From contig JAIPIU010000003.1 of the NCBI GenBank assembly GCA_021734475.1, forward strand, positions 62,001 to 126,000: a stretch of DNA of 64,000 bases, given 5' to 3'. Position numbers and translations under genes: made by a program. The notes beneath the pieces are model-generated. The model was given only the letters and a program-made list of their open reading frames with translations. It had not been told where the DNA came from and made no database searches. Shown in pieces: positions 2,475 to 35,716 of the stretch. Positions within the stretch are counted from its first letter, which is position 1. Each line of letters starts with the position of its first letter. This DNA comes from Candidatus Altimarinota bacterium (GTDB lineage Bacteria > Patescibacteriota > Gracilibacteria > Absconditabacterales > Absconditicoccaceae).

Positions 2475-3944
2475 TTATTCAATTACAATATTATTTACAA
2501 ATTCTATCCAAGAAGAATCCAATATTTCTATTACAAAATTCTTATCTCAAACTTTTCTGTAAACCAATTGATCTGTTTCCTGAAATCAGTTTTTCATATT
2601 ACATTCATATATTTTAATTGATGGCATATCATGTAATTTATCTTTATCAGAATATTTTATTACATCCATTTGAGTAAAACAATAAACTCAAACTTGATCA
2701 AAAGTTTCCTCAGTATTTGTACCAGCAAATGATATATTCATAGATGGAAATGAAATTTTATATCATCTTGTAGATGAATTGAAAACAAGAGGTTTTTCTA
2801 AGTTTATAGGAAATTGTTTTACATTAGCATCTCGCTTTAAAAGCGTTCATTGTGGTGTTTCAATTTTCTTCACTTCATCTAAAATAAATGTTTGCAAAAT
2901 AAGTTTCTTTTCAAATCAAGGATTTAATATCAATTTACAAGTTACAAATCAGGTAGAATAATTTCATTTAACCGTTAATAATATATCATTATTTTGAAAT
3001 GATAAATCATAGGAATTTATTTTATCCATAATTCATTGATCATTTTTACACAAACTATTGATTTCTGACATCAGATTTTCTTCAACATATTTTTTATTTG
3101 GTAAAATAATATAATCAGATATTTTCATAACTTCAGATTCTCAAACATTATTTATAAAGTATCAAATCATATTTTCATTTGAGAAAAACCAAGAATCAAT
3201 GGAATCTAATTTATAAAAAGAAACTCTATTAAGTGTTGTAAAATCTTTTTCTGCTGATTTTGAAAAAACATCATTTAAATATTTACAGTTTTCATCTTGT
3301 TTTTTATCATTACATCTAAAATAAGATATTGTAATAATCTGACTTGTTTCCAAGTTTTTAACAATTAAATTTCAATCTTCTCATTCATTTTGTAATATAT
3401 AATTTTCAAAAAAATCTGAATCTAAATAAATACCAGGTTTAGATAAATATTTACCAGAAGACAATAGCAATCAAGTTTCTTCTACAACAACTTCTCATTG
3501 AATATTATTTACTTCAATCACAAACATATCTCCAACTAATTTTTCAATTATTCACTCTACTTGAACTTCTCAATTATAATCACTCAAGTCTAAAGTCCTA
3601 CTTTTAAGTCAAAAAATATCTCAATCAAAAGTATTTAATTTATGTGTATATGATGATATAATATCTTCATCCATATAAAGATTTCAGGAAAGATTGACTT
3701 GATCTCATATTTTAAAATCAAATTCTTGAGTATCTTCTATAGCTCATGATCAAGAGTCTGAAATAAAAGTACCTCTAATACTATCATATTTTTTGAATAA
3801 GATAAAAACAACAACCAAGATACTAATAATGATAATAATAAATGTTCAATAAGATACTCCCTTTTTGGTAGGAGTAAAAGATCTCTTTTGACTATTTCTA
3901 TTTTCATTCATTCTTTTTGTAAAATAATCCATCTGCTGTTCCAT
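2475..3944 (-). CDS. Membrane-anchored exported protein of unknown function
   Basis: A 489-residue protein. The start MEQQMDYFTKRMNENR gives a short basic cytoplasmic tail, followed by one strongly hydrophobic segment (about residues 35-53, rich in Ile/Val) and then a long polar, beta-rich extracytoplasmic region with many acidic residues and a few cysteines. This is a type II signal-anchor layout. No catalytic motif is recognised. Glycines are partly TGA, as in neighbouring native genes. It is the first gene of the minus-strand group reading into rsmE and murE, and it is separated by 91 bases from the divergent MscS genes. A surface or cell-envelope role is an inference from topology only. 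Confidence 0.75.
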
Positions 3945-4035: not shown

Positions 4036-5025
4036 ATGTCCATATACCAAACATATAAAATCAGATTAAAAATTGTATTAATTATAATTTTGCTTTATAA
4101 TCTAGTATGTTTTACAAATATCAAAAACAAAATGCAGTGAGAAAATGCTCAAGAAGCGACTAGTTGACTATTTTGATTACAATGACCCGAAGTTTGGTGA
4201 TATATTTTGAAAATATTTTGAGGAGTAATAGTAATTATAGTCATGCTAATTATTTCTAAAATAGTAGCATGAATAGTCAAAAGAAATATTATAAAAAATA
4301 ATACGATTACAGACAGTAAACATATAGACAAAATAGCATGATTAATATGAAATATTGTATTTTATATAATGGTTATTTTTTCCTTTTTCATATGATTTGA
4401 AATAATGTGATTCAATGTATGACTGATACTATGATGAGTGTCTTTCGGAGTTTGATTAGCTTTCAAAGAAATATTATGAAATATGATAGCATGAATAATG
4501 ATACTTTATACAAAAGAATTTAAACTAGGTGATATAGTAGAAATAAATGCAGATCAAGTATATTTTGGAAGAATAGAAGAAATTACCATTAGATATACAA
4601 TCATTAGAACATTAGATCTTAGAGAAGTAATAATACCAAACATGACACTAATATCTGTACCAATCAAAACATTTAGTTCAGAAGAACTAGTAAAATTAAA
4701 TTTCATGATATGAGTACATTATGAATCAGACATACCAAAGACTATTGAGGTTTTAACAAATTGCATAAATAGTTTTGATTTTGTAAAAAGCCAAGATAAC
4801 ACAAAAGTTTTTGTTACAAATTTTGGAGCAAGTTCAATAGATATGAAATGTATGTTCTTATTTGACCCTAAATGATGATTATTAGAAGAATATGCTATAT
4901 GAGCAATAAATGAAAAAATAAACGAAGAATTTAAAAAGAATAATATTAATATACCTTACAATATGATAACTTTAAACTTTGAAAAAGAAAAAGATCAAGA
5001 AAACACAATAAATAATATCCAATAA
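4036..5025 (+). CDS. MscS-family mechanosensitive channel
   Basis: A 329-residue small-conductance mechanosensitive channel subunit of the inner membrane, expected to open under hypo-osmotic stress. Three or four hydrophobic segments precede the pore-lining helix with the glycine-rich pattern GVSFGVGLAFKEILGNMIAG, most glycines being TGA. The beta domain follows (YTKEFKLGDIVEI, RTLDLREVIIPN), then the alpha/beta C-terminal domain. Start chosen at the ATG encoding MSIYQTYKIRLK; a later ATG is possible. A second MscS gene begins 22 bases downstream, so the two are probably co-transcribed. Confidence 0.9.
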
Positions 5026-5046
5026 GGTTTTAAATATATTTAGAAA

Positions 5047-5889
5047 ATGTTGGAAAACATAGTAAAGTTAATAACAGATTATCTATCAGAAAACTGAAAA
5101 GAAATAGCAATAAAACTATTAATAGCAGTAACAGTATTTTTTGTAATATTATTTTTTATAAAACGATTAACAAAAAAAATAAAAGCGAGAATAGAAAAAA
5201 ATTCAGTTCAAACAGATGAAAAATATACAAAAAAGATATCACATCTAATTTGAAATATGATATTTACTCTTCTCATGATATTCAATGTTCTAATAGTATT
5301 TGAGATAATATGATTTGATGTAGCATTATTGATGTGATGAGTATCTCTTTGAATGTGATTCGCCATGGAAACAACTATCGGAAACATGGTTTCATGAATA
5401 ATGATACTCTTAAACAAAAAAGTTAAACTATGAGATTATGTACAAATGTTATGATCCTTAAAATTAACATGAGTAATAGATGAAATAAATATCAGATATA
5501 CGATCATCAAAACAATAGACAAAAGAAGAGTAATAGTTCCCAATATGAAATTAGCTACAACCCCTATCAAAACATTAAAAACTGAACCATTAATTAGATG
5601 AGAAATAGATTTAACGCTACCACGTAATATAAATGTAGAACAAATCAAAAAAGTATTAACAGATACAATAAATTCAGAAGAAAAAGTAGTACACAAAGAT
5701 TATACAAATGTATTTATTTCATGATTTGATTTCCATGGTATAAATTTCAAATGATTCTTTTTCTATGATCCCAAATGATGAAAATGAAAATTTGTTATTT
5801 GTTCTGAACTAAGACAAAAATTAAAAATAATATTCAAAAAACTTTGAATAAATCCTCCTTATGAAAACATAACAATTACAACTGAATAA
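5047..5889 (+). CDS. MscS-family mechanosensitive channel (second copy)
   Basis: A 280-residue paralogue of the preceding channel, shorter at the N-terminus. It shows the pore helix GGVSLGMGFAMETTIGNMVSG, then LLNKKVKLGDYVQM and KTIDKRRVIVPNMKLAT of the beta domain and a C-terminal alpha/beta part. Two tandem MscS genes of different length could form separate channels with different thresholds or a mixed one; the sequence does not decide. The C-terminus meets the convergent gene at 5937 after a 47-base gap. Confidence 0.9.
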
Positions 5890-5936: not shown

Positions 5937-7916
5937 TTATTTTTTGCTCATAAATTCTGCTATAGAATTTATATCTTCCATCATTTTCAAAACATCTTCC
6001 CAAAAAGTTAAATTAGTATCTAGATAAGTAACTATAAGTTGATTCATTTTTAGTAATCTATCAGCCTGTATAGATTTACTAGGATCTCATATAGCATTCA
6101 TTCATTTATTTTGAAAACTAGAAACATTATTACTTATTTGAATTTGACTAATAATCTTGTCTGGATCTCATAATAGAGAATATTTATTTTTTTCTTCTGC
6201 TGTATTTAATTCTTCTCCATAAGACAATATCGATTTAGCTACATTTCTTTCAAAAAGTTCTTCATTTCTTTTTTCTATAGTATCTGAAGTTTCTGAGAAT
6301 AAATTTTTGAATGCAGATCATACATTAAAAGAAAATATTTTACCAAATTTATTTTTTGTTACAGAGCTTTCCAAAAATTCTTTTGTCTTTTTATGTACCA
6401 ATAATTCTCATCCATCTCTCAAACTAGCCAATATTGCATAAAGTTCTTCATATATCTCTTCTATACTAAATACTACTTTTCAATTTTGAGAGAAAGCACG
6501 ATTTTGTACAGGTATCATACAAAATTTAATTTTAAAGGCTCATTCATCTAATATTTTAAAATTATCATTAAATGCTGGACTAGAAAACTCAGTACAGGTA
6601 CACTTAACAATACATACTAGTTTGTCATCTACAGGCATTCAATCACACTTATCTATACAAGATAAAATAGCTGATTGCGAATCAGGATCATTTATATTTG
6701 ATAACATATCTACTTGTTCTTCTATCTGATTATAAACCTCATCTCAAGTCAAAACCACTTCCTCTCAGTTCACAAAAGAACCTCAATTAGTAATACTAGA
6801 ATTTCATTGAGTTTTATTTTCATCAATCTGATTTATCAAAACATTTAGATATCACGATATTATTTCTCATGTATTATAATACGTTTCATTAGTTCAACTA
6901 AGAATAGATCAACTAATACAAATATTTCAGTTTATTATATTATCCTCACTATATTGATTTTGAGCATAGCTTGGACTAGTATTGTCGTCTATAAATTGCA
7001 AAACCTCATCATCCAATATACCTTTCAAAGATGTAGAATTAGGATCTGAAGTTTTGGATGTATTAGATGAGTTATCTCAGTTATTTCAAGAATTATTTTG
7101 ACCAGAATTAGATCCAGTCAAAAAATCTGATGGATCATATGGAGAATACCAATCTACTGTCCCATCATCCAATATTTCAGGAGTATTATTATCTGATCAA
7201 TAATTTACATCAGGGAATTGATAATACAACACTTGGGGAGAAGATTTGAATCATTCAAAAAGAATTTTTCATACAATACTTATATCATACAAAAGATCAT
7301 AATCAGCATCATCCAGTTTTCCATTCCAAAACAAGTCATCTCAATAATTTATCTGATCAAAAGTAGATATATCACTATCACTAGAATACAAGCTTATATA
7401 AATTTCATTCAGTTTTTGAGAACAAGTTTTAGATAATTCCAATCCTCGTGTATCATTTTCAAATTGTCCATAAACACATCACATAAAAATATTACAAGAT
7501 TGAAGATATTCACTTGTATTTGGATATTTAGCTTTTGCATTAGGATCAAAATTTAAAATATTTTGTTTAAAAGACCTTTTGAAAGTATCATTGGAATAAT
7601 ACAATATATTCACAATATCTGCTTCATTTATATTACAAGTTCACTCAGAAGAATTTCTAACAAAATCCAAAGTATTAGTAATAGTATTTTTTATAGAAGA
7701 TATTTCATTGGTTCTAGCTATTTCCAAATTTTTATAATACAAATCTGAAATTACAGCTTTTCATGCTATACTAGATACATAATCTTCATTTACCAAATCA
7801 TTATAAGTCCTAGACAAAAAATCTCAAATTCAAGCTCATTCAACGACAAAAACACCAGATCATACAATCATCAAGAACATTGTTAAAAAGATTCTCTTAT
7901 TCGATTTCTTGTACAT
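5937..7916 (-). CDS. Large exported protein with cysteine clusters, unknown function
   Basis: About 659 residues. The start MYKKSNKRIFLTMFLMIVG gives a basic tail and one hydrophobic segment (signal peptide or anchor); an earlier in-frame ATG at 7931 would add five residues. A long polar region rich in Asn, Asp and Ser follows, with a cysteine group near the middle (CIDKC, CIVKCTC) and a charged helical C-terminal third that could form coiled coil. It is not a family I know. It is the last gene of a three-gene minus-strand run of exported proteins and overlaps the upstream gene by 20 bases, so translation is probably coupled. A surface or host-contact role is inference. Confidence 0.75.
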
Positions 7917-9069
7917 TTCTAAGTTTACCATACAAAGTATAAAAAGGTGTTACTATTTTATAAAGATATTTATCTCTAAGTATCAGTAGATCTTCTTGAT
8001 ACATCAAAAATCAAATATGCAAAGGGAATGTAGCATATATTTCATTCAACATCTTAGTGGTATTTGATACAGCACTATGCATTCTGTTTATTTCTCTATT
8101 AAACTCATATATTTTATTTTTAAAATAGTTTTTAGCTGTCGTTGTATCTTTATTAAAAGGAGCTGGAGCTATTTCTGTAGGAGCAGATAAAACTTTTTCT
8201 TCATAAAATTTTAAAAGCAAACGATAATAAAATATCTCATTATATATCAAATTTATATACTTAGAATCTATATCAAATCCATGTCATATTAATCAGCATT
8301 TCAAAAAATCATAATCACTAGCAGATGTAGCTGGACAACTAATTAATCATTTATCATCAGATACTAATATATTTTGATAATTAATAATATCCAATCATTT
8401 TAATAATTTAGCTGAAGATTTTAGATAAGATTTCATAGTTTTACACAACTGTGGATACAATCCATTAGTCGTATCACAAAACAAAACATTAAACTTTTCT
8501 TTAGAATAATTATCTACTTGATCCTCTATTTTCATTTCATCAAAATCAGGATTTTGCAAACCATATAATCTAGACTGTTGAAAAGATACAATATCATTTA
8601 TCAATACATTAAACACACTAGGAAAGTGAGATGATATATCACAATTATCCATATCTTTTTGAGGATCACAATAATCATAATCTCAATTTGGTCAATAATC
8701 TATTATTCATAAATCATTAAAATCCTGTTTTTTCAGATAAGATTTATCTCCAGATAAAAAGTTTTGGTTAAACTTAAAATCTAAATCTTTATTTATATTA
8801 TGACAAATAAGATATAAAAATACTGATTCTCAAGGACTATAAACATAAATATCATCTATTATTAATCCTGAATTTATCAATACAACAGAACAAAAACTAT
8901 TCAAAATATCTTTTGTAGAGTCGGTTTGACTAGCTAATAATTGTGTTGATATAATATCCAAATACTCACTCTGAGTTTGATAAAATCCATTTTGAGAATA
9001 TCAAAAAGAAAATATTGATCACAAAGTAATCATAGTCAATAAAGTTCTTTTGATAATCAATTTTCTCAT
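7897..9069 (-). CDS. Exported protein, unknown function
   Basis: A 390-residue product starting MRKLIIKRTLLTMITLGSIFSFG, a clear signal peptide or anchor. The mature part is rich in Tyr, Asn and Asp with scattered cysteines (CDPQKDMDNCD, LFCDTTNGLYPQLC) and ends in a helical, charged segment. No known domain is recognised. It sits between two other large exported proteins on the same strand, 22 bases after the gene ending at 9092 and overlapping the following gene by 20 bases, which suggests the three act together. Confidence 0.75.
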
Positions 9070-9091
9070 ATCCAACTAAATAAATTAAAAA

Positions 9092-10642
9092 CTATCTAGC
9101 ATAACAGCCAGCATTTCATTTATTAGAACATTGAAGTTCACATACTGTACCAATATTTTTTATTAAATTTTTATCCTTACTTCATATAATATCTATCACG
9201 TCACGTATACGATAACCTATCTGAGTATAAAATTGTAAATAAGGAGTAGGATCTATACTTACCAACACACTCAACTCATCTTGGTGCTTTTTATTTACAC
9301 TTTTCATTACTATCTCCAAAGATTGTTTAAAATCATCTTTAGCAATTACTGGATAATCAATTTTTGATTCCAAAAGATCACTCAATTCTGATATATTATC
9401 CAACAATGTTTCATTTCACAAATTTGGATTTACAGCATCTTTTTCTTCCTGATCTTTATCTTTTTCTTTTTGATCTTTTTCTTTTTTATTAAAATAATCA
9501 TCATTAAAATTTGAGCTCAATTTTATATTTCCAATAGTTGATGTAGCTAAATTTTTCCAAGAATTAGTAAGCAAAAGTCACTGTTGTTTAGTAAGTTTAC
9601 TAGTATTTATACCATATACATCTCTCAAAAGATCAATTTGTCTATCAGTCAAAACCTTTTCTCATTCAGATTTATCTTTTTTATAATTATTGGATACTCA
9701 TCTCAGAGCATCAGCAAAATTTTTATTAGCAGTTACAATATTTTCTTTTGCGCTTGCTCATCATTTTTTAAAACTAGTTCAAATATTTTTGATATTTTTT
9801 ACAAAATCTTTTCGAGAGCTATCACATTTAAAAAATCCTCTAGCACATTCATATGAAGAATCCAAAATTTGAATACTTTCCATATCAAAAGCTATATCAA
9901 ATCAGTCGATACCTCATTGGGAATATTTATCAAATTGATTGATAGTTCACATAGATAGAAAAGTTTTCATAGAACCATTCATTTTCAAAAGCATACTTAC
10001 CAAATCTTTGTATTTAGCTCCATCATAAATTTTTGCTCTATAAAAAAGCTTATTTGAATCTTTATATTTATCTAATATGAGTTGAAATTTACTTGTATCT
10101 ACTATTACATCATCAGCCATAGCTGACAATCAAAGCTCATAAAACATCTCATTTATTTGGGTTTCCAAATCCAAAAGAGTCTTCCAATCTCTAATAAATG
10201 GTCTAGATTTAGTTAATATAGACATTCATATAATATCTTTGTAAGAACCTATACCAAGGGACGACAATATAAAAACTGTAGCGCTAGCTGTAGATATTTT
10301 TTTATTTATGCTTTCTTCTATTTCAGAGACTAATTTCTCAAATATATTTTTATTCTCTGTAGGTATATTAAATATTTTATTAGTAAACAGTCATCACAAA
10401 TAGTTATAATCTCATAAATCTTTACCATCTCATTGGACGGTTTGTATTCCAGCAAGCATCTCTTTTACAAATTGTTCATAATATTGAAATTGTAATCATG
10501 GACTAGAACATATGGTAGGATTATCTCCACACTCTACTTGAGCATTTCAACTACCTTGAGCAAAAGTAAATCAGCAAAAAATTGCTTGTCAAACAAACAT
10601 TATAAAAACAATAGTAAATGTTTTTTTGAAAACTTTAGACAT
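9092..10642 (-). CDS. Exported protein with charged repeat linker, unknown function
   Basis: A 516-residue product. The N-terminus MSKVFKKTFTIVFIMFVGQA followed by CGFTFAQG looks like a signal peptide with cleavage near AQG. Cysteines occur near the mature N-terminus (VECGDNPTICSS), in the middle (CARGFFKCD) and at the extreme C-terminus (VCELQCSNKGNAGCYAR). A run of Lys/Asp/Glu/Gln around residues 395-415 reads like a flexible charged linker. Family not recognised. First of three adjacent exported proteins; the next minus-strand gene upstream is an anchored metallopeptidase. Confidence 0.75.
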
Positions 10643-10758
10643 ACAAGTTCTATCCAAATAAAGTTTACATAGAAATTATAGTTTAAAAGCTAATAAAAAA
10701 CAAAAAAACTACCCCTTCAAAAGCAAGAATAGTTGACTTTTTATTAAATAAATAATAA

Positions 10759-11736
10759 CTAATAGCTAATCCTAGTTGTATCCCAATATCTATAGTTAGT
10801 ATTGCGATTTTTTTGATCAAAATACCCTATATTTTTGTCCAAATATTTACCTGCATACAAATTTGCCATATAATTATATTTCTTTTTCATAATAGAATTG
10901 GAAATGGCAAAAAATCTAAAAATATAGTTATGATTTAGATATAGATTATGACATTCAGCAAAATCTTCAAATGGATCAAACATACCATATCCACTACAAA
11001 AGTCCTCAGGTTTAGCATCAGATTTTCTTATTTTTTCTCATTCCCAAGAAAGCTTATAATATTCTATAGACGGATCATCTATTGGAAATATAACTTCTTC
11101 AAATTCTGTAAAAGAACTATCCTTTTTTTTATTATATCATTTGATAGTAAACAGATCTAATATATGTCCAAATTCATGACCCAACAATTGTTTAAATTCA
11201 TCATCAAATTTTATAGACAAAGTATTTATATATACATCATTTGATCTAGTATATCCTCTTTTTTTATCAGATTTTTGGTATAAATTTAGATAATTAAATG
11301 ATTTCAAAAAATTTTCTCCCAATCTCAGATATCAATTTATTCATCACAATATATAAACAGAATCTTCAAAATAATCATACTTATCCTTGGATTTATATTC
11401 TCAGTCAAAGTCAACTTTATTACATATCAGATAATTTTTTTCACACAAGTTATCAAATAAATTCTGATAGGTATCTACAATAGTGTCATTTGAATTAGAT
11501 TGAGTATTGCTAGCTACAGGCTTATCTTGATTTTGAGAGTTTATCCAGTCTCGTAGACTAGCTTCATGAAATTCACTATCCATATCCTCAGACAAATAAT
11601 CTTTGGCAAAAAAATCAGATACTTTTTCTCCTACATCAAAAACATTGTAACTAAGTCCCAAATAGACAATAGTAGTAGCCAAAACAAGTTTAATAATATC
11701 CCATATGCTAATCTTTGAAATAATTTTGGTAGGCAT
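10759..11736 (-). CDS. Membrane-anchored zinc metallopeptidase (HExxH)
   Basis: A 325-residue protein starting MPTKIISKISIWDIIK with one hydrophobic segment at about residues 13-30, then a Ser/Asn-rich linker and a peptidase domain outside the membrane. The zinc motif HEFGH is at about residues 187-191 within LLGHEFGHILDL, and a downstream Glu in FEDFAECHN is a plausible third zinc ligand (gluzincin type). It overlaps the 3' end of the exonuclease gene by 29 bases and lies just upstream of three exported proteins, which may be its substrates or partners (inference). It could also serve in cell-wall turnover. Confidence 0.8.
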
Positions 11737-13876
11737 ACCGTTCTATGTCAGCTAAAATATACTTCTCCTGAGATCATTTTATATTAAACACAATAAGTTT
11801 GTCAATATTAACTTTATTTGAATAACAAGACATCAAAAAATTATATCAACCAACCAGTATTTTTTTTCAATCAGATTTGGCTTTAAATATATTTTTTCCA
11901 AATCATCAAGTAATATTTTCTATCAACATCAAATATTGTTTATCTATTCATTTTGATACAAAAAAATCAAATAAAGCTTTTGATTCATCTTTCTTGGTAG
12001 AAAGTATAAAGACACAGTCAGTATTGTCATAATCCAGATTATCTCGAAATTCAGCCACTCTAGGAATAGTAGACAAACGCTGAATATCAATATTTGATTT
12101 AAATTCTTTCAAATTTGGTGTAAATGTCTCTTTTATATTTTTATAATTTTTTTCGTAATTTGATAAAAAGACCATTTTAAAATCTTGAAATTTCTCAGTA
12201 AATTCAGACCAATTGGTGAATTTATTTACCTCAGAATAAATAAAATAAAAATCAGATTGATTATACATTTTCTTTGAAATAGCTGTTATTTCACCAAATA
12301 TTTCCAACATATGATCTATACCCGCCCAAAATATCTTAAAATTTCATCATAACAAATCACCAAATATAGATTTATAAGTTTCAAACTGTTTTATCAAAGC
12401 ATTGGTTTTTACAAAATCCAGATTATCTATAATAGGATTGATCTGAATATTTGGGTTTGGTTTATCTCTAAATAATGTCTTGGTTTCTATAAATATCTCT
12501 CATATAAATATTTGAAAGAAATTATAAAAATTTTCTAATTCATTTAATATATTTTCACCATTCAAACCAAGTTGATATCCAAGTTTATACTTGTACATAT
12601 ACATCTCTATCAAATTTAGAATATAGTACAAATCACAAGGCCTAGATAGATAGTTATTATAACTCTTATACCACCACTCTACATCAAAAAACAAAATATT
12701 GTAATCATAATACGTTTCTCTATTTTCTTCGATCAAAGAAAACAGACCTCAATGTGTAGTCAAAATCACAGGATATCTAACAGATTCTCTATAATCTTTG
12801 ATAAAATAATATATCTGAAAATCTGATTTACTATTTAGATCCAAGACCCCATATCATTGATACAGATGTGAGACATATTTTAATACAAACAAAACTTCAT
12901 CATCGTCCCATTTTTTCTTATTTAGAAATTGATAAAAATTATCATAATTTATAGTCTGATCTTCTTTGGCAAATCAAATATTTTTTATTCATATATCATT
13001 CAAAATAGCCTTAGCTATATCCATTTTATTCTTACTAGAAAAAGACAATACAATCTTTTTGTTTACGAGTAATCATTGCAAAATATCTTTGAGTCAAACA
13101 TCACCAATATAATATCTCTCAATATTTTCCAATTTCTCCAAATCAATAGTATCTATATTATTTTTAAAAGATGTATTAGCAGGTCAAATTTTTTCCAATT
13201 TATCTAAAATAATATTATCAAATTCCAAATAATCAATATCTCCAAATAATTCTGAAAACAAACTATGTTTAACCAAAAAATAATTTAATACAGGATAATT
13301 TTTTTTGAGTTCTAATATATAATTTATAGTATAAACAAAAAATCCCAAAGCATTCTGAGTATCACATAGAGCATCATGAGCCGATTCAGTATCTGATAAC
13401 CATTCTCGATTCAAATCTATATTTTTGGAAACTTTATCATTTTGAACTCTCTTGATCAATACATCCAAAGCATAACTAGGAGCATAATGAACAAAATTTC
13501 TCATCCAAGCCAATGTATCTATACTATATTTAAATTTAAAATCAGGAAAAAACTTCTTCAAAAAAGATAAATCAAAATCAACATTATGTCATATCAATAC
13601 TACGTTTTCTCAACTAAATTTTTCTATTTGTTTCCATATATTCTCAACTCACGGAGAATCTTTTAGATCAGAAATATTTAGTCATGTAATAAAACCGACT
13701 ATACTTTTGAGTTCAGAAATATCTTTTGTAGGTTTGATCAAAGATTCAAATTTATCGATAATTTTTAGATTATGATCAAGTTCCACAATTCAAATCTGAA
13801 TAGGTTCATCCTTATTTACATCCAATCATGTAGTCTCAAAATCTATTCAAATATATCTATATTTAGGATTTAGCAT
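11708..13876 (-). CDS. DnaQ-type DEDDh 3'-5' exonuclease fused to a decayed DinG-like helicase region
   Basis: A 722-residue protein. Residues 1 to about 180 are a DnaQ/PolIII-epsilon-like exonuclease with all motifs: DFETTG (Asp12, Glu14), IGHNVDFDLSF, and AHDALCDTQNALG. The remainder has the order of a DinG-type helicase, but the key parts are altered. Where a Walker A would be expected I see only LLVNKKIVLSFSSKNK, and the place of the DEAH box reads ILFFDVEWW. The final ILVGGYNFL region resembles the last DinG motif. The exonuclease should work; ATPase activity looks lost. Start ATG at 13876 gives MLNPKYRYIGIDFETTG. The stop lies inside the following peptidase gene. Confidence 0.8.
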
Positions 13877-14141
13877 CAAAAATCAAAATATTAAAATATT
13901 ACTCGCAATACTACAAAAAAAGATTTTCAAAGCAAAAGAAAAATATATTTTCTTGTATAAAAATATATTTTAGGTATAAAATAACAAACAGAGTTCCACA
14001 CAACTCACCGCTATCCAACATCACAGATAACATATAAAATTTTGTTGTTTTCAAGCAAACATCACAGATAGCGTCGAGTTAAACAAAATCGCTCCACGTC
14101 GAACCAATAAGCAACTTAATACATTTAAATACCTTACAAAT
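13877..14141. other. Intergenic region between divergent genes
   Basis: A 265-base AT-rich gap between the exonuclease gene (minus) and mevalonate kinase (plus). It must contain promoters for both directions, but I see no strong -35/-10 pair. An 11-base string CATCACAGATA occurs twice about 40 bases apart (near 14018 and 14060). No RNA gene or open frame is evident. Confidence 0.4.
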
Positions 14142-24792: not shown

Positions 24793-26013
24793 ATGCTTTT
24801 AATAGGAGATATCCATACAACATCTCGCATCAATGATAAACTTATCAATAGTTTAAAAAATTTTTTCGAACAAAATTCTGAGGAGAAAAATATAGTATTT
24901 TTATGAGATTATGTATATCACTTTTCATATGACAGAAAAGCAATATTAGAATTATACAATCTATTTTTACGATTATTTGAAAAATGAAAAAACATATATA
25001 TTTTAGCATGAAATCATGATCGATTATGAAATTATTTTGTATATCAAGAAGCACAAAAAGCTTTTAACATAATCAATAATATCAAAAAATCTGATTGAAA
25101 ATTAAGTTTCATTACGCAGCCAATTATAGAAAATATTGAATGAGAAAATATTTTATTTTTTCCATTTTCTATAGATATAGCAAATACACAAGATTTAAAA
25201 TATACCAATCCATTACGAGAAGAACTAAGTAACTCTAAAAATAAAAGTGAGCAAACTTCCTGACAAATAAACCAAATATTATCAAACTACATATCAGAGC
25301 ATCAAAAACTAACTATAATACACCACTACTATATAAACAACACTATTTTCCCATGACAAAAATCAAGATTTTGATACAAAGATATTTGTTTAAGTAATGA
25401 ATTTTTAGATAATTCAGATATTAGATTGATATCATGACATCTTCATCAAGCATTTATTCACAAAAATTATTTTTGTTGTGGAAGTGTTCGATCTACTACT
25501 CCACTAGAGATAAATCAAAACAAATTTTTATTTAAATACAAGCCAGAAAATAATTATATAGAATGATTCTTCAATGATATTAATCCATATATCATGATAA
25601 ATAAAACACAATGAAAAATAATAAACAAAAGTTCTATAGATGATATTTTTCAAAAGACATCAGAAGAAAATATTAGCAATCTACAGAGCAATGAATATCG
25701 AAAAATCCAAATATGAAATCAAGCACAGCTAAATATATCAAACGCTTCTATACAAATAAAAGTTGAAGAAATAAACTATGAAAATATAGAAACCCACATA
25801 GAAAAAGATCTAATTAAAGAATTCAAAGATATTAAATTAAAAAAAGACACTAAATCTATATGAGAAATAATACAAAATTTTTCTACATCGGCAGAAAATT
25901 TAAAAACATGATTTACAGATCGAAAAACAATATTAAAAGAATATATAGAAAATAAATTTCAATGAGATTCTTATAAATACGAAAAGATCCTAAAAGATCT
26001 AAATATTATTTAA
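24793..26013 (+). CDS. Calcineurin-like metallophosphoesterase
   Basis: A 406-residue protein. The phosphoesterase domain covers about residues 1-235 with all metal motifs: IGDIH, FLGDYVYH, LAGNHDW near residue 76, IIHHYY and ISGHLHQA. The Trp of GNHDW is encoded CGA (25021). The remaining 170 residues are polar and helical without a recognisable domain. The layout recalls SbcD/Mre11-like nucleases (NQNKFLF region), but no SbcC follows, so nuclease function is uncertain. Its neighbours are an 88-residue membrane protein and a DUF1846 gene 121 bases downstream. Confidence 0.85.
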
Positions 26014-27997: not shown

Positions 27998-28468
27998 TTA
28001 TAATATATAATTTTTCAAAAACCAGAATATAAAACTGACTATCAACCATGACATTCACATTATAAACAAAGCTATAAACACTCCAATAATAATTTTTCTT
28101 GCTTTTGCAACTCACTCTTCTTGTTTCACAAATAATATAAGATAGAATGCATATATAATCAAAACAAGTGATATAAGTGAGACTAATCACAAAATCATAT
28201 TCAAAACCATCTTGATATAGTATTCTGCTTTATTTGGTCATTGAAGATAGGTAGCTGAATCTAATCAAAACACAGTAAATAATCTATCCAAAACTGACTG
28301 ATTTGGTAAAATAGCATCTCATTTAACTATTTCTCCAATTTCTAAATTATCAGAATATGTTGTATTATTTATATTATTATCATAAAAAAAATCTTCAGCA
28401 TTTACCCACGTTCATATTCATAAGAGAACAACAAATCATAATAATCAGATTTTTAAAAGATTTTTCAT
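27998..28468 (-). CDS. VirB2/TrbC-like pilin-type membrane protein
   Basis: A 156-residue protein with signal sequence MKNLLKIGLLGFVVLLGIG ending near VNA-EDFF, and two C-terminal hydrophobic segments separated by a short charged loop containing KQEEGVAKARKII. This two-helix layout with a polar loop is typical of VirB2/TrbC pilins in Patescibacteria. It lies between the TraC-like gene and a second pilin-like gene, all on the minus strand. It probably forms part of a pilus or channel. Confidence 0.72.
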
Positions 28469-28489
28469 ATTTTTCAACAAAAATTAAAG

Positions 28490-29005
28490 TTAAGATATAT
28501 ATGCAATAATCCAAAATATAAACGAAACAACCAATCGACTAAGTCATACTCAAGCTAAAGCTATTACAGCAGTTTGCAATCATTTGATTCATTTTTTATA
28601 TTGAGCATCATTTCATGCTGCTGTCACCATCAAGAATCCATGATAAATCAAATAAACCAAAGCTACCAATCAGATCAATCACAAAGTATAATTTATTATA
28701 TTTTTCACAATAGACATTGTTTCGCCCAAAGCAGTACTATGATCAGATATCAATCCCGGATTAGCTATTCAATTCAATTCATCACTAGATATAGTATTGG
28801 TTGCATCTGCATCAATAATTTTGAATGCACCTTCTCTAATTGGATCAGAAATAGGATTATTATTATCATAGACATTCAAAGCATTTTCAGAATCAGTATT
28901 TAATATAGTTTGATTTTGTCATAATTGCAATCATTGACCAAAAACACTAGCACCCAAAGCCAATACAAAGATATGAATAAACAAATATACAATTTTAAAT
29001 TTCAT
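28490..29005 (-). CDS. VirB2/TrbC-like pilin-type membrane protein (second copy)
   Basis: A 171-residue paralogue of the preceding protein. Signal segment MKFKIVYLFIHIFVLALGAS, a polar middle, then two hydrophobic helices separated by AAGNDAQYKKGIKGLQTAV, the Gly-Asn-Asp/Lys loop common to VirB2-like pilins of candidate phyla radiation bacteria. It ends RLVVSFIFWIIAYIS, very like the neighbouring pilin (VSFIFWFLKNYIL), supporting duplication. First gene of the minus-strand half of the secretion block. Confidence 0.75.
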
Positions 29006-29165
29006 AAATAAAATCTGATTCCAAATAAAAGATTAAAATACATCTAATTATAAACCAAAATATACTTTTTGCAAATTTTAGACTTGAAAAAAACACAACA
29101 TTTAATATATACTAAACTAATACACAAAAATAGTTGACAAATTTATAATTTAATTAAAAAATATA

Positions 29166-30242
29166 ATGAAAAAAAATCTATTAATACTACTTTCATTTTA
29201 TTTCTTTGTATTACAGTCATTCGTTATATGACTATTACGAAAAGATTATAGATTTTTTACACTATGAATAGTAAACCTCATAATAATTATAGCTATAGTT
29301 TTGATTTACAATTATTTTGAAAAAGATAAAAAAGAAAAGAAAAAAGATAACACAGAAACATCATTCAAAAAAGAGAAAGAAAATCTTTTGATAGAAAACA
29401 CACATCACAAAAAATCAAAAAAAAAGGCTCCATTATTTCTATTAAGTCTAATAATAATTCTAATTATATTTTTGGCTCTAAACTGAGAATTAACATCAAA
29501 TAAAATAATAATATCTTCTTGAATTGGGTTTATCGTTTATATTGTATTGTTTTACTCTCTATCCAGACACAAAAAAGGTACATTTTTAGGTTTACGAAGT
29601 AGTAAATTAATTTTAATAATATTTTTATTTTGACTAGTTGTAAACTGATTTGATAGTGGAATATCTGAAACTAGAAACCAAACCATAATATGAACAATAC
29701 AAAATATTTTCTCCAACAAAAATATAGAAAAAACAGAGAAAGAAACTTATCAAGAATTACAAGATATAGACGAATGAACCTGAGAAATAATATCACAAGA
29801 CTATTGAGAAAATATTACTTGAGAAAACATTAAAATATCTGATAATATCCAAGATTCAGATATAGAAAATACAGCTACAGACATAAATCAGAATTTTTTG
29901 AATGACTGAGATATTACTATACTAGACGCTATCAAATATTTATTGGATATCAATAATATACCACTAGATATGAATCAAAATGTAAAATTTAAATACATTT
30001 CATATCAAAATGAAAACTATCCATATTTCAAAACAGCATATATGAAAAAAATGATCTGATCAAATACCAATCCAGATAAAGAAATTATATGCCAAACATA
30101 CATAGTAATGAAATGAATCGTAGAATGACGAAATGTATCTTCTTGATGAGATCCACTCACAAATTATCTAAACAAAGCATCTCAACTATGAAAATTAAAC
30201 TGATGCGAAAGAAATAAATATGTAAGTTTAGAAAATTTATAA
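29166..30242 (+). CDS. Multi-pass membrane protein, unknown function
   Basis: A 358-residue protein with two N-terminal hydrophobic helices, a lysine-rich cytoplasmic stretch (about residues 55-90), three more helices up to residue 165, then an acidic Asn/Thr-rich region and a C-terminal polar domain with two or three cysteines. No family recognised. It is placed between the pilin-like genes and the VirB6-like genes and ends at a strong terminator, so may be a separate component of the secretion block (inference from position). Confidence 0.62.
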
Positions 30243-30261
30243 TACAAATTATTCACATATC

Positions 30262-30290
30262 AAAAATAGCGAAATACTCGCTATTTTTTT
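30262..30290 (+). terminator. Rho-independent terminator
   Basis: Perfect 11-bp stem AAAAATAGCGA/TCGCTATTTTT with a 5-base loop (AATAC) and following T run, 19 bases after the stop of the preceding gene. Confidence 0.88.
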
Positions 30291-30415
30291 GATAAAATAA
30301 ACTACATAACATTTTACAAAAATAGCAATATAACTAATCAGAAAAATCAGACTCTATTTGTCTATTTTTTATTTTTGGAATATAATCGATATGTATTATA
30401 TCTATAAACAAATTA

Positions 30416-32878
30416 ATGCTAAAAAAATTACTTAAAACAATATTTTGATTTCTAATAGTCCTATGATTTAGTTGATTTTTTGTAAATCAAACTTTTCCTA
30501 GCCTAGTATATGCTGAAACAGCTACACCAACAGCTACTGAAAGTACAGAAGATTACGTAGAAAAAAATATGTACAAAATTAGAGATACTCTAGATGTAGT
30601 AACCAAATGAATTTATATGATTACTCGACCTTTGCTTGTAATAGCATGAAATTCATTAGACAATTCTTTGGTATATTGATCTGTTTTTCATCTAGATGCT
30701 CCCCTACGAAGTTTTCGAAATATTATGAAAAACTTTGCTAATTTTGCTTTATGATTTCTATTATTATACAGTATAGTTAGGAGTTTATTAAAAAAATGAT
30801 GAACATGATGAGCAATGAAGATAGTCAAAAACACTCTAATAGCAGGAATTTTGATACAAGCTAGTCGATTTTTATTATCAGCAGTTATAGATGTTTCTAC
30901 TATAGCAACATATGCAGTCTGATGAATACCTATGACTATTTTGCAAAATTCACCTCAATGAAAACAGCCAATACTATGAATCAATTCATCAATAAATTTA
31001 TCCGATTCAAATTCCAATTTACAAGAAAATCTTGATGATGTAATATTTTATCGAACATATGGTAAAGAAAAAGAATTCAAAATATCTTCATGTAAAACCA
31101 AATATGTAGAAGAAAAAGAAAAAAACTATATAATAGGAAAACAGCTTATGTTTGCATCAGATACTAGTTGAGAACAAATCTTACTAGAAAACTGATATTG
31201 TATATTATGATGAGCACCATATCAAATAAATGAATTCCCAGATTTACAAACAGCGATTAGTAATGCTGATTACAAAACCAAACAAAATACACTTATGAAA
31301 ACACCTCAACGAGAAGATCGAGAAAAATGTTGATTTATTATAGCAACACGATGAACTGGCACATATGATAAAGATAATTGTAATATTCAATGAGTTTGAA
31401 CATTAGCTGAATCTTGATCATTAGGAACTATCTGATGAAAAAAACGATTAGATTGATTAAGTCCTCCAAGTTGAGTAGCAAATTTATGAAATTTAATAGA
31501 AAGATCCAAATGATTTGTTTGACCACTTATTACAATCTATTCTAGTATATTAAATTTTGGAACTTTATTGGACGATCCGTGATCATCTAGCGATGATATG
31601 ACATTTTGAGTAGTATTAAAATTCGCAATAAAAACAATTACATGAATTATGCTCATACTACCACTATTTGCACTAGCTATAGTATTGTTAGCTAGAATAT
31701 GATTTCTATGGCTTATAATAGCATTTGTACCAATCATAATATTACTTCATTTTTTCAAAGAAGAAATCTCATTACCAGAAATGAAATTTTTAAAAATACC
31801 AGAAATAATAAAAATTATATTTGCACCAGTTTTTGTGGTTTTTGGACTTAGCCTAGCTCTAATATTTTTGAGTACTATCAGTAATTCATTGAAAAAATCT
31901 CCTTTAGTAGATACAAACTGAGTAACTATTACATGACAAAATTCAAATTGAGATACCACCAAAGAACAATTATTAGAATGACTAGGTTTAACTCAAGAAA
32001 AAGACAATTCATACTCAGTTTTGGGATGATTATCGACTTTTAGTATCAAGTGAAATCTATTTGGCTGAGTATTAGATGATCTATCATACATGTTGATAAA
32101 TATTTTTTGAATAGCAATCATGTGGATGCTATTATTTTGGACTATCAAACAAAATATGATATGAGAAAAAATCTGAAAAAAAATCCAAGATTTTGGTCAA
32201 AATTTAGCAGTCAATGTTCCAATGGTGCCGATAGCATGATGAGTATGACTCAAACAAGCTTTTGGTGTCTGATGATGAGAATGATTAGCATGAAAAACTA
32301 TGAATCAATTAACAAATACTATGGAAAATAAAAATATAGATAAACTTCAAGAAGCTTGATTCTTACCAGAAGATAATAGCTCTAAATCACCAGATAACAA
32401 TGATCAAGTAACATGACAACTTACTCCAGAACAAGCAAATGAAATTATACAACAAATAGAAGAAAAGAATTTAACAAAAGAAGATACAGAAAGAAAAACA
32501 ATTATAGAAACAATTAGAAAAGATGCTGGTGTAGAAACAAATCAGGCTATCGAGACTTGGATAAGAGAACCTGAAAATGCAAGACTATTAATAGCTGCTA
32601 TTGAATGATTAAATACACCCGCACAAAAAACTGAAGTAACGTGAGCTCTAGAATGATTACTCGACATAAAAACAATGCAAGATTACAAAACAGCCTTATC
32701 AACAAAAACAATAGATGATATAATGAAAGATTTAAAAGATAGTAAACCAGAAGCTGTAATAAATATACAACTAGATCAAGAAATAACTCTCAAAGATGCT
32801 AAAAAATATAAAATTAAAAAAGTTTGAGACAAATACGAATACGAAGAAATAACTACAAGCCCACCAACCACTTCATAA
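30416..32878 (+). CDS. VirB6/TrbL-like giant membrane protein of a type IV secretion-like system
   Basis: An 820-residue protein: signal/first helix at residues 1-25, a conserved core with several transmembrane helices (FWNIMKNFANFALGF near residue 100, LIQASWFLLSAVIDVSTI, later FAIKTITGIMLILPLFALAI and following helices), and PMVPIAGGVGLKQAFG before a hydrophilic, helix-rich C-terminal tail of about 190 residues. The core matches its neighbour at 32892 motif by motif. VirB6-type proteins form the inner-membrane channel. Two CGA codons (30707, 30716) lie at Trp positions; one aligns with TGG in the neighbour. Confidence 0.8.
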
Positions 32879-32891
32879 TTTATATAAATAG

Positions 32892-34802
32892 ATGACAAAA
32901 ATCCGCATAAACAGAAAATCAAAACGGATGAGAACTATCAAAATAGTATCAGTATTTTTGTTAATCTGATTTATATTCTTCAATTTATCATTTGCTGCCG
33001 ATAACAGTTCAGCGCAAAGCACAGAATATTTACAACAATTTTTTCAATTTTTGATTTCATTCTTATCCCGATGATGGGTTTTGCTAGCTAGTATAGCATG
33101 AAAACTCATGACCAATGATATGGTTTATGGATCATTTATACATATGGATGTTTTCATATGGAAAGCTCGAAATATTATGAAAAATTTTGCAAACTATGCA
33201 TTATGATTTTGATTCTTATTTTTTATAATCAAATCAATTTTTTCCAAATGATGAGCAGCCTGAGACACAAAAAATAAAATAATATGATTTGTATTAGCAT
33301 GAGTACTTGTACAAGCTAGTCGATTTATTTTTGGGGCTATTATAGATGTTTCTACTATCACACTAGTCAGCATATCATCATTTCCATGACAGATATTACA
33401 ATCCAATACTCAATTTCAAAAACAATTTAATGAACTTAGCGCACAATGATGAAATAGTTTACCAGCTACTTGAGAGGTTTTAACATGAATGGAAATGATT
33501 TTTAATCCAAACAAAAAAAATGGAGAAGCATTTTTCTCGATTCAAGAAAAACCACTAGATAAATGAATCACTCAAGACAACTATCTAGATATGATATTAC
33601 CAAGTTACAATAATATATCATGACCATTGATATTTATGTGAGCATCTATCTTTTCATTTCAAGACTATAGTTTATCAAACCCCAAAACCACAAGTGCTCG
33701 AAAACTATTTTTAGAATTCTGAATTAATTTATTTATCATACTAGTTTATTCTATTGGACTATTATTCCTAGTATTTATAAATTTTATTAGAATTTTCTAT
33801 TTACGAATATTTATAATATTTTCTCCTTTTATTATATTACTAGGAATAGCTCAAAAAACAGAACTATTTGGTAAAAAATGATCTTGAGGTTTAGATAAAA
33901 TAATGGAACATATATCTTTTACAAAGGTTCTATCTTTGATTTTCAAACCAGTTATATTTATGGCATACGTATCCATAATGCTAATATTTGTAATATGAGT
34001 CAAAGCAATTTTGGTTCCACAAGAATGATGAAACGTAAATATCTCAGACAATATTTCTATTAGTTCTCAAGCTATATCTACTCCAGCTTGAACATCCTAC
34101 AATTCATCTATCAAATCAGAAGATGTCCTGGATTTTACCGTCAATTGAGCCAAGAATAGTCTTGCAGATCTAATAGTAGCATTCTTCACATTATTCCTTA
34201 TGTGGTTTTTGATTAAAATGGCATTATCTAAATGATCATGAATAGATCGATTAGATAAAAATATATGAGAACAAACAAAAAAACTTGAAAATCTTGCATG
34301 ACAATTACCTATTATGCCAATAGCATGATGAGTATGAGTAAACTCAGTATTTGGCGATGAAAATAGCATCAAATCATGACTTAAAGATAAATATAATGTA
34401 ACTGATACACGATCAGATCAAAGTGAAGATAGAGTAAATGAACTACTTTGAATTGCTTGAGCACGAAAAACATCATATAGCAAAAACTTAGAAAATGATA
34501 TTACAAAATCAAAAGATCCATTAGCTTTCCGAAATAATTCATCTGATATTGCAAAAAGTATACAGTGATGACTCAGCATAACAGACTGAAATCGAAATCC
34601 TCTTGTACAAAATCGATGGGAAACTCGAGCAAAATGAAATGAATATCAAACTATAGAATGAACAGAACTAAAAAAAGCAGATACTTTAGATAAATTTTTG
34701 GATCTAAATGCTTGAAAAATAGATAATCTAATGTGAGGTGATTGATCTATCTCCAACTATGAAAATCTAAAAAAACAATATTATTGAATTAGCAAAGAAT
34801 AA
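32892..34802 (+). CDS. VirB6/TrbL-like membrane protein (paralogue)
   Basis: A 636-residue paralogue of the preceding protein. The signal-type N-terminus ends near SFAADNSSA; the core has VFIWKAWNIMKNFANYALGF, VLVQASWFIFGAIIDVSTI, a cluster of helices around residues 270-330 and LPIMPIAGGVGVNSVFGDE near residue 475, then a hydrophilic tail that differs completely from its paralogue. Gap to the upstream gene is 13 bases, so they are one transcript. Two different VirB6-like subunits may assemble together or provide alternative channels. A small AAGGA/TCCTT hairpin follows the stop. Confidence 0.8.
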
Positions 34803-34816
34803 AAGGATTTCTCCTT
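34803..34816 (+). terminator. Small hairpin after the VirB6-like pair
   Basis: AAGGA-TTTC-TCCTT hairpin directly after the stop codon. It lacks a clean T run, so is only a weak terminator candidate. Confidence 0.35.
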
Positions 34817-34876
34817 GAATAAAAACACAATCTAAATATATTGAGATTTGCGATTTATTTTTTGTTGAACCAAAAA

Positions 34877-35716
34877 ATGAAAAAATTATTCATATTTTTA
34901 TGTCTATCGTGCCTATTGTATTTACAATTTTGACATACTTACAACCCTAGCAATCAAGATACTCAACAATTGAATAGTCTCAAAATACAATTAAACAAAG
35001 TAATATCAGGTAACAATCAGGATTTACGAAATTTTTATTATCAATTAAAAAATCTACAAAATAGATTTTCTCAAAATCCTAGATTAGACTATATGTTAAA
35101 TAACCTCAAACAAGACCTATATATACAACTATACTCACAAAAAATACAAGCAAAAACACAATCCAAAGAATTCAAACAAAACTTTGTAAACGAATTTTCT
35201 TGATGAATATCGATAGATGACCCTATTTTAGATGAATGCACATGATGGTACAACACATTGGATGATATAAGCTTCGCTTACAATATACCTACAGCATTAA
35301 CCATATCCACACGGTATAGAGAGACAAATTGCGGATATTATTTACCCTCCAACTGAGATTGACCATTCCAAATATTAAAACAAGATTACGGAACCTGAGA
35401 AATTACAGAAGATATATTTGTAAAATCAGTACAAGATTTCGCACAATTTAGTAAAGATAAACATATCCAATACAAAACTAAATTATGAATAAATCTGACT
35501 TACACCTGATTTGATCGAACTTGATTGGTCAATCACTGAGCACTATATAACTGAGCTAGGATAACATGAAGCGATGAAAGCTGATATATTGCACAAGCAT
35601 TAGCACCCAAATATTTGTATGATTGATATTGAGCAGAATATTCATGAGCGATTAGATACTGACTAATCCCCAAATTTCTAAAAATTCTAGATCGAGAAAT
35701 ACAAAATAAATATTAA
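34877..35716 (+). CDS. Lysozyme-fold / VirB1-like peptidoglycan hydrolase
   Basis: A 279-residue exported protein. MKKLFIFLCLSCLLYLQFG is the signal; residues about 30-110 form a charged helical region. The region STWYRETNCGYYLPSNGDGPFQ (written here in part) has the Glu and glycine-rich turn expected of a lytic transglycosylase-like fold, and NHGALYNGARITGSDESGY near residue 220 may complete it. Such enzymes open peptidoglycan for secretion channels. It follows the VirB6-like pair, supporting that role. The Trp in STWYRE is CGG. The exact family is uncertain. Confidence 0.65.

Follow-up and report, generated by a model that had tools for sequence, protein, structure and literature searches.

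Three adjacent genes in the window (the whole 64,000-nucleotide stretch of DNA analyzed here) encode exported proteins, designated P1, P2 and P3. They are best read as accessory subunits, exported by the Sec route, of a cell-surface system that is specific to the class and centers on a giant exported protein. We place the probability of this reading slightly above even, at about 0.55. Giant adhesins are already known; what is new is a class-specific giant with four exported partners of no known family. The fourth partner, a small exported protein designated F10 in Absconditabacteria and s1 in Peregrinibacteria and Peribacteria, belongs to the set, judging from sequence comparison. To our knowledge, the mechanism of host attachment by predatory or episymbiotic Patescibacteria outside Saccharibacteria is not known.

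Three ordered genes and their products

The P3-P2-P1 cluster occupies window positions 5937-10657 on the minus strand. P1 (P0001, 5937..7916), the class-wide core subunit, has 659 residues. P2 (P0002, 7897..9069) has 390 residues from its ATG, or 392 from an upstream TTG, and P3 (P0003, 9092..10642) has 516 from its ATG, or 521 from a TTG. All three frames are open only under genetic code 25, in which TGA encodes glycine, and under this code the lengths of 659, 390 and 516 residues given by the original prediction are confirmed. In-frame TGA is read as glycine 30 times in P1, 11 times in P2 and 22 times in P3. Glycine TGA is rare in L164 and L173, at about 0.6-0.7% of codons, compared to 1-6% in most of the family.

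Each of the three proteins, all predicted to be mostly helical, begins with a hydrophobic segment resembling a signal or anchor, as the original prediction described. The cysteine groups it pointed out are conserved across homologs, with 11 such residues in P1, 8 in P2 and about 7 in P3. Conserved positions are chiefly Cys, Asp, Gly and aromatic residues. P1 has invariant residues D207 and C466, the motif N-G-x-L-D-D-S-x-Y/F-D-L-L, and long low-complexity linkers; insertions of DUF11 or Cys-repeat type are lineage-specific. The C-terminal motif is RNVQ in P2 and CxxxC...C in P3. A VKOR gene for disulfide formation was searched for and not found, and a scan of the genome contigs with P1 gave no match.

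The absence of any known domain, also foreseen, held for every collection searched. P1, P2 and P3 have no Pfam or NCBIfam family match, 50 members of the P1 family produced only isolated lineage-specific or chance matches to those two libraries, and searches of all three proteins against PDB sequence profiles returned chance matches only. Among the last, a match to DELLA was set aside as chance, as it falls on a low-complexity linker. AlphaFold models reached a pLDDT of 58.9 for P3 and 61.6 for P1, in which about residues 60-190 form a confidently modeled helical region. Foldseek found no match for either at E<=0.001, and the best VIA Z scores, 4.9 for P3 and 6.2 for P1, do not exceed the background stated for helical models. 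The predicted models are too weak for fold assignment, and we do not propose a new fold.

As predicted, the genes for P2 and P1 share exactly 20 bases (7897..7916, minus strand). The ATG of P1 is nested in the P2 codons for N-V of the conserved RNVQ motif, an arrangement kept in most genomes of the family. Among family members the start of P1 is offset by -17, -20 or -23, depending on how long the P2 tail is. A few genomes retain the RNVQ peptide where the ATG is lost, so the motif is also maintained for the P2 protein. The overlapping start of P1 inside P2 is long-lived.

Conservation together with a giant exported protein

Homologs of P1, P2 and P3 occur in the same order throughout the family within Absconditabacteria. 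In 36 of the 40 family loci where P1 is intact, P2 lies directly upstream of P1 on the same strand, and 33 of the 40 have the complete P3-P2-P1 arrangement; elsewhere the genes are dispersed or inverted. Pairwise distances among the three proteins correlate at r 0.87-0.92 in a mirror-tree comparison across the 33 loci, against a shuffled maximum of 0.27. The three distributions match, which is the reverse of the unrelated distributions that the original prediction named as counting against it. Comparison of P1, P2, P3 and F10 with one another led us to reject the idea that they are mutual paralogs.

In six Absconditabacteria loci (L109, L112, L113, L115, L118 and L159), a giant exported protein (F6), F10 (about 290 aa and likewise exported), P3, P2 and P1 are encoded consecutively on one strand. 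Eleven further family loci have the giant and F10 a few genes away, mostly on the opposite strand. The giant measures about 4,100-4,600 aa in sister genera (4,097-4,412 aa for complete giants in relatives). The window genome carries it on other contigs: a first piece (C5:69093-80755) reaches the end of its contig, a continuation lies at C7:3-2144, and F10 follows at C7:2155-3075. Because the match is collinear, we infer that a break in the assembly divides a single gene into these two pieces. Only P3-P2-P1 are contiguous in this genome, and G012, G014 and further genomes also have the set split, so the genes need not be tightly coupled in one operon.

The N-terminal domain of the giant is conserved and has no PDB match. 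A C25- or caspase-like nature of this domain is at most tentative: the motif is suggestive only, and the Peptidase C25 profile matched 1 of 12 members, at E 0.04. A Pfam scan of the 3,887-aa part that precedes the last 713 aa of the window genome's giant gave only a sub-threshold FG-GAP match and no SLH match. In one class member (L249, G025:C6), a homolog of the giant is encoded as one open frame of 7,874 aa.

The same set recurs across the class. Class loci were selected by a P1 match and good assembly, and the named records among them are Peregrinibacteria, Peribacteria and Gracilibacteria. The operon of Peregrinibacteria and Peribacteria reads giant-s1-P2-P1-s4. Giant, s1, P2 and P1 lie on one strand in 17 of the 18 code-11 loci (L176-L193), and s4 follows P1 in 16 of them; in L189 an additional ORF separates the giant from s1. 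Profile-profile comparison gave 98% for P1 with s3, 97% for P2 with s2, and 67% for F10 with s1, the last two occupying an identical operon position. P3 and s4 are a putative pair: hhalign gave 40%, with the alignment mainly at the signal-peptide end. Code-11 giants run from 3,844 to 5,456 aa and share collinear conserved blocks. Their domains above the Pfam cut-off are TSP3, FG-GAP, Invasin_D3 (invasin-like Ig) and SLH, the last in three peregrinibacterial giants.

Across 288 genomes of the class, the P1 profile matches 146 and the profile for the giant's N-terminal domain matches 207. Both occur together in 138, that is, in 138 of the 146 P1-positive genomes. The Fisher p-value for this co-occurrence is inflated by shared ancestry, and it is the nesting that carries weight, not the number. 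Families f5 and f8 have neither P1 nor the giant among the rows listed. In a scan of 380 genomes of the phylum, the giant appeared in 20, all within the class, with none found outside it; P1 was confined to the class save for one weak match (E 1e-4).

A candidate system for contact with other cells

At the level of sequence, the association of P1-P3 with the giant is well supported. A functional partnership is likely because gene order is conserved, the families co-occur, and export signals are present. The original prediction spoke of an uncharacterized surface complex that included an adjacent peptidase; the linkage and export of P1-P3 stand, but the constant partner is the giant and not the peptidase. 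We infer further a physical complex, a location at the surface, and a role in adhesion or host contact. Contact with other cells is suggested by the giant's adhesion domains, by the host dependence of cultivated relatives, and by published descriptions of giant surface proteins (PMC8080830, PMC13059738, PMC4736985).

The giant has about 4,000-5,500 residues, with its conserved N-terminal domain and an integrin-type FG-GAP region; peregrinibacterial giants also carry Ig-like and TSP3 domains as well as SLH domains, which bind the cell wall. Most likely the giant would be secreted and retained on the cell surface. The small helical, disulfide-capable proteins would bind the giant, or chaperone and anchor it, and so enable it to serve for adhesion to host or prey cells or for contact with them.

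P1-P3 and F10 could instead be export or folding factors for the giant, such as periplasmic chaperones, anchors or processing helpers, that stay outside the final structure. The same co-occurrence and synteny fit this alternative, and where a very large secreted protein has genes for small helical exported proteins next to its own, these commonly assist secretion. The low-complexity linkers of P1 and its DUF11 or Cys-repeat insertions, however, are more typical of exposed surface proteins than of chaperones, and no chaperone-like match was found. We give the alternative a real but minority chance. Membership in a class-wide set built around the giant makes P1-P3 candidate components of the structure through which these bacteria interact with other cells. 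The class-restricted set names partners for one giant among the several in each genome, offers a specific target for studying contact of the Vampirococcus or Absconditicoccus type, and provides a marker for the class. A bolder and rather doubtful proposal is that the giant, F10/s1, P1, P2 and P3/s4 make up a previously unknown envelope-anchored contact machine, arisen in the ancestor of the Gracilibacteria class, by which Absconditabacteria and Peregrinibacteria would hold or penetrate other cells.

Several described systems resemble parts of this set. Very large membrane-targeted proteins have been proposed for host attachment in Vampirococcus lugosii, Absconditicoccus praedator and S. methylophilicida, and the large proteins of Absconditabacteria carry integrin/FG-GAP, DUF11 or fibronectin-type domains (PMC8080830, PMC13059738). 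The likeness lies in very large size, membrane or export targeting, and adhesion-type domains; in their accounts of large proteins, these papers list them and describe no conserved operon, partner genes or class-wide orthology. Ca. Peribacter riflensis has large Cys-rich extracellular proteins that have been suggested for attachment; their average length is 1,655 aa, a cluster of 14 genes is among them, and two are annotated as FG-GAP (PMC4736985). These are alike in large size, export and FG-GAP, a resemblance that falls short of demonstrated identity with the present set. The peregrinibacterial giants recall S-layer proteins in having SLH domains (PF00395) above the cut-off, while no SLH match came from P1-P3 or from the part of the giant that was scanned in the window genome. 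In the literature on giant surface proteins, we did not find such an operon or such partner families described.

Neighboring genes

A calcineurin-like phosphoesterase (F16, 24793..26013, plus strand) and two VirB6/TrbL-like polytopic proteins (F8, 30416..34802, plus strand) are encoded 14-29 kb from the cluster in the window. F16 directly follows P1 in four sister genera and stands one gene further in a fifth. In G006, G007, G010 and G019, P1, F16 and F8 follow one another directly, and in G248 they almost do. Together with the resemblance of F8 to TrbL/VirB6, and with the VirB6-like and T4SS_pilin genes that the window carries at a distance of 20-25 kb, this arrangement would fit a set that forms part of a T4SS-like envelope machine, with F8 and the pilin-like genes as its inner-membrane part. 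We consider this improbable. Within the family only five genomes have F8 adjoining P1, and no Peregrinibacteria locus examined does, so that the linkage is not class-wide; P1-P3 have no T4SS family match in Pfam or NCBIfam, and the giant likewise has no T4SS family match. UvrA, moreover, lies in the same neighborhood, adjoining F8/F16-region genes in the window, which makes bystander synteny plausible. UvrA also adjoins the giant operon, in opposite orientation, in most Peregrinibacteria loci examined (L176-L186, L188). The shared UvrA, VirB6-like and phosphoesterase surroundings therefore suggest an ancestral neighborhood rather than a proven functional linkage.

The T4SS-like block itself extends over window positions 27998-35716. 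It contains two small proteins of T4SS_pilin type, one of them over the cut-off, the two VirB6/TrbL-like proteins, and a possible lytic transglycosylase next to UvrA.

The membrane peptidase that the original prediction placed directly upstream of P3 is present there: a putative HExxH metallopeptidase (P0004, 10759..11736, minus strand) of 325 aa, with the motif HEFGH and an N-terminal membrane segment. It scores 19 bits against Peptidase_Mx (PF15887), below the curated cut-off of 27. As a constant partner of the cluster it was rejected. Of 40 relatives, 36 have the peptidase, among them genomes in which P1 is not detectable; it is mostly encoded elsewhere in the genome and adjoins P3 only in genera g1, g2, g3, g19 and g21. 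Even with the peptidase adjacent, and overlapping an upstream exonuclease gene, in those five genera, it is very improbable that P1-P3 are ordinary enzymes of the periplasm or that they process peptides jointly with this peptidase, given its usual location elsewhere, the lack of any enzyme family match for P1-P3, and the Cys, Asp, Gly and aromatic character of their conserved residues. At window positions 10759-13930, the peptidase gene shares 29 bases with the end of an RNase_T-type exonuclease gene, and several genera keep this pair next to P3.

Two MscS-type mechanosensitive channel genes (4036..5889, plus strand), the first matching MS_channel over the cut-off, are also located as predicted beyond the cluster. 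They are not members of the set, being neighbors of the cluster only in g1 and one sister genus (L097, L098, L099). A 489-aa single-anchor protein with no Pfam match and no convincing NCBIfam match is encoded at 2475-3944, and its conservation beside the MscS genes is likewise limited to g1 and one sister genus.
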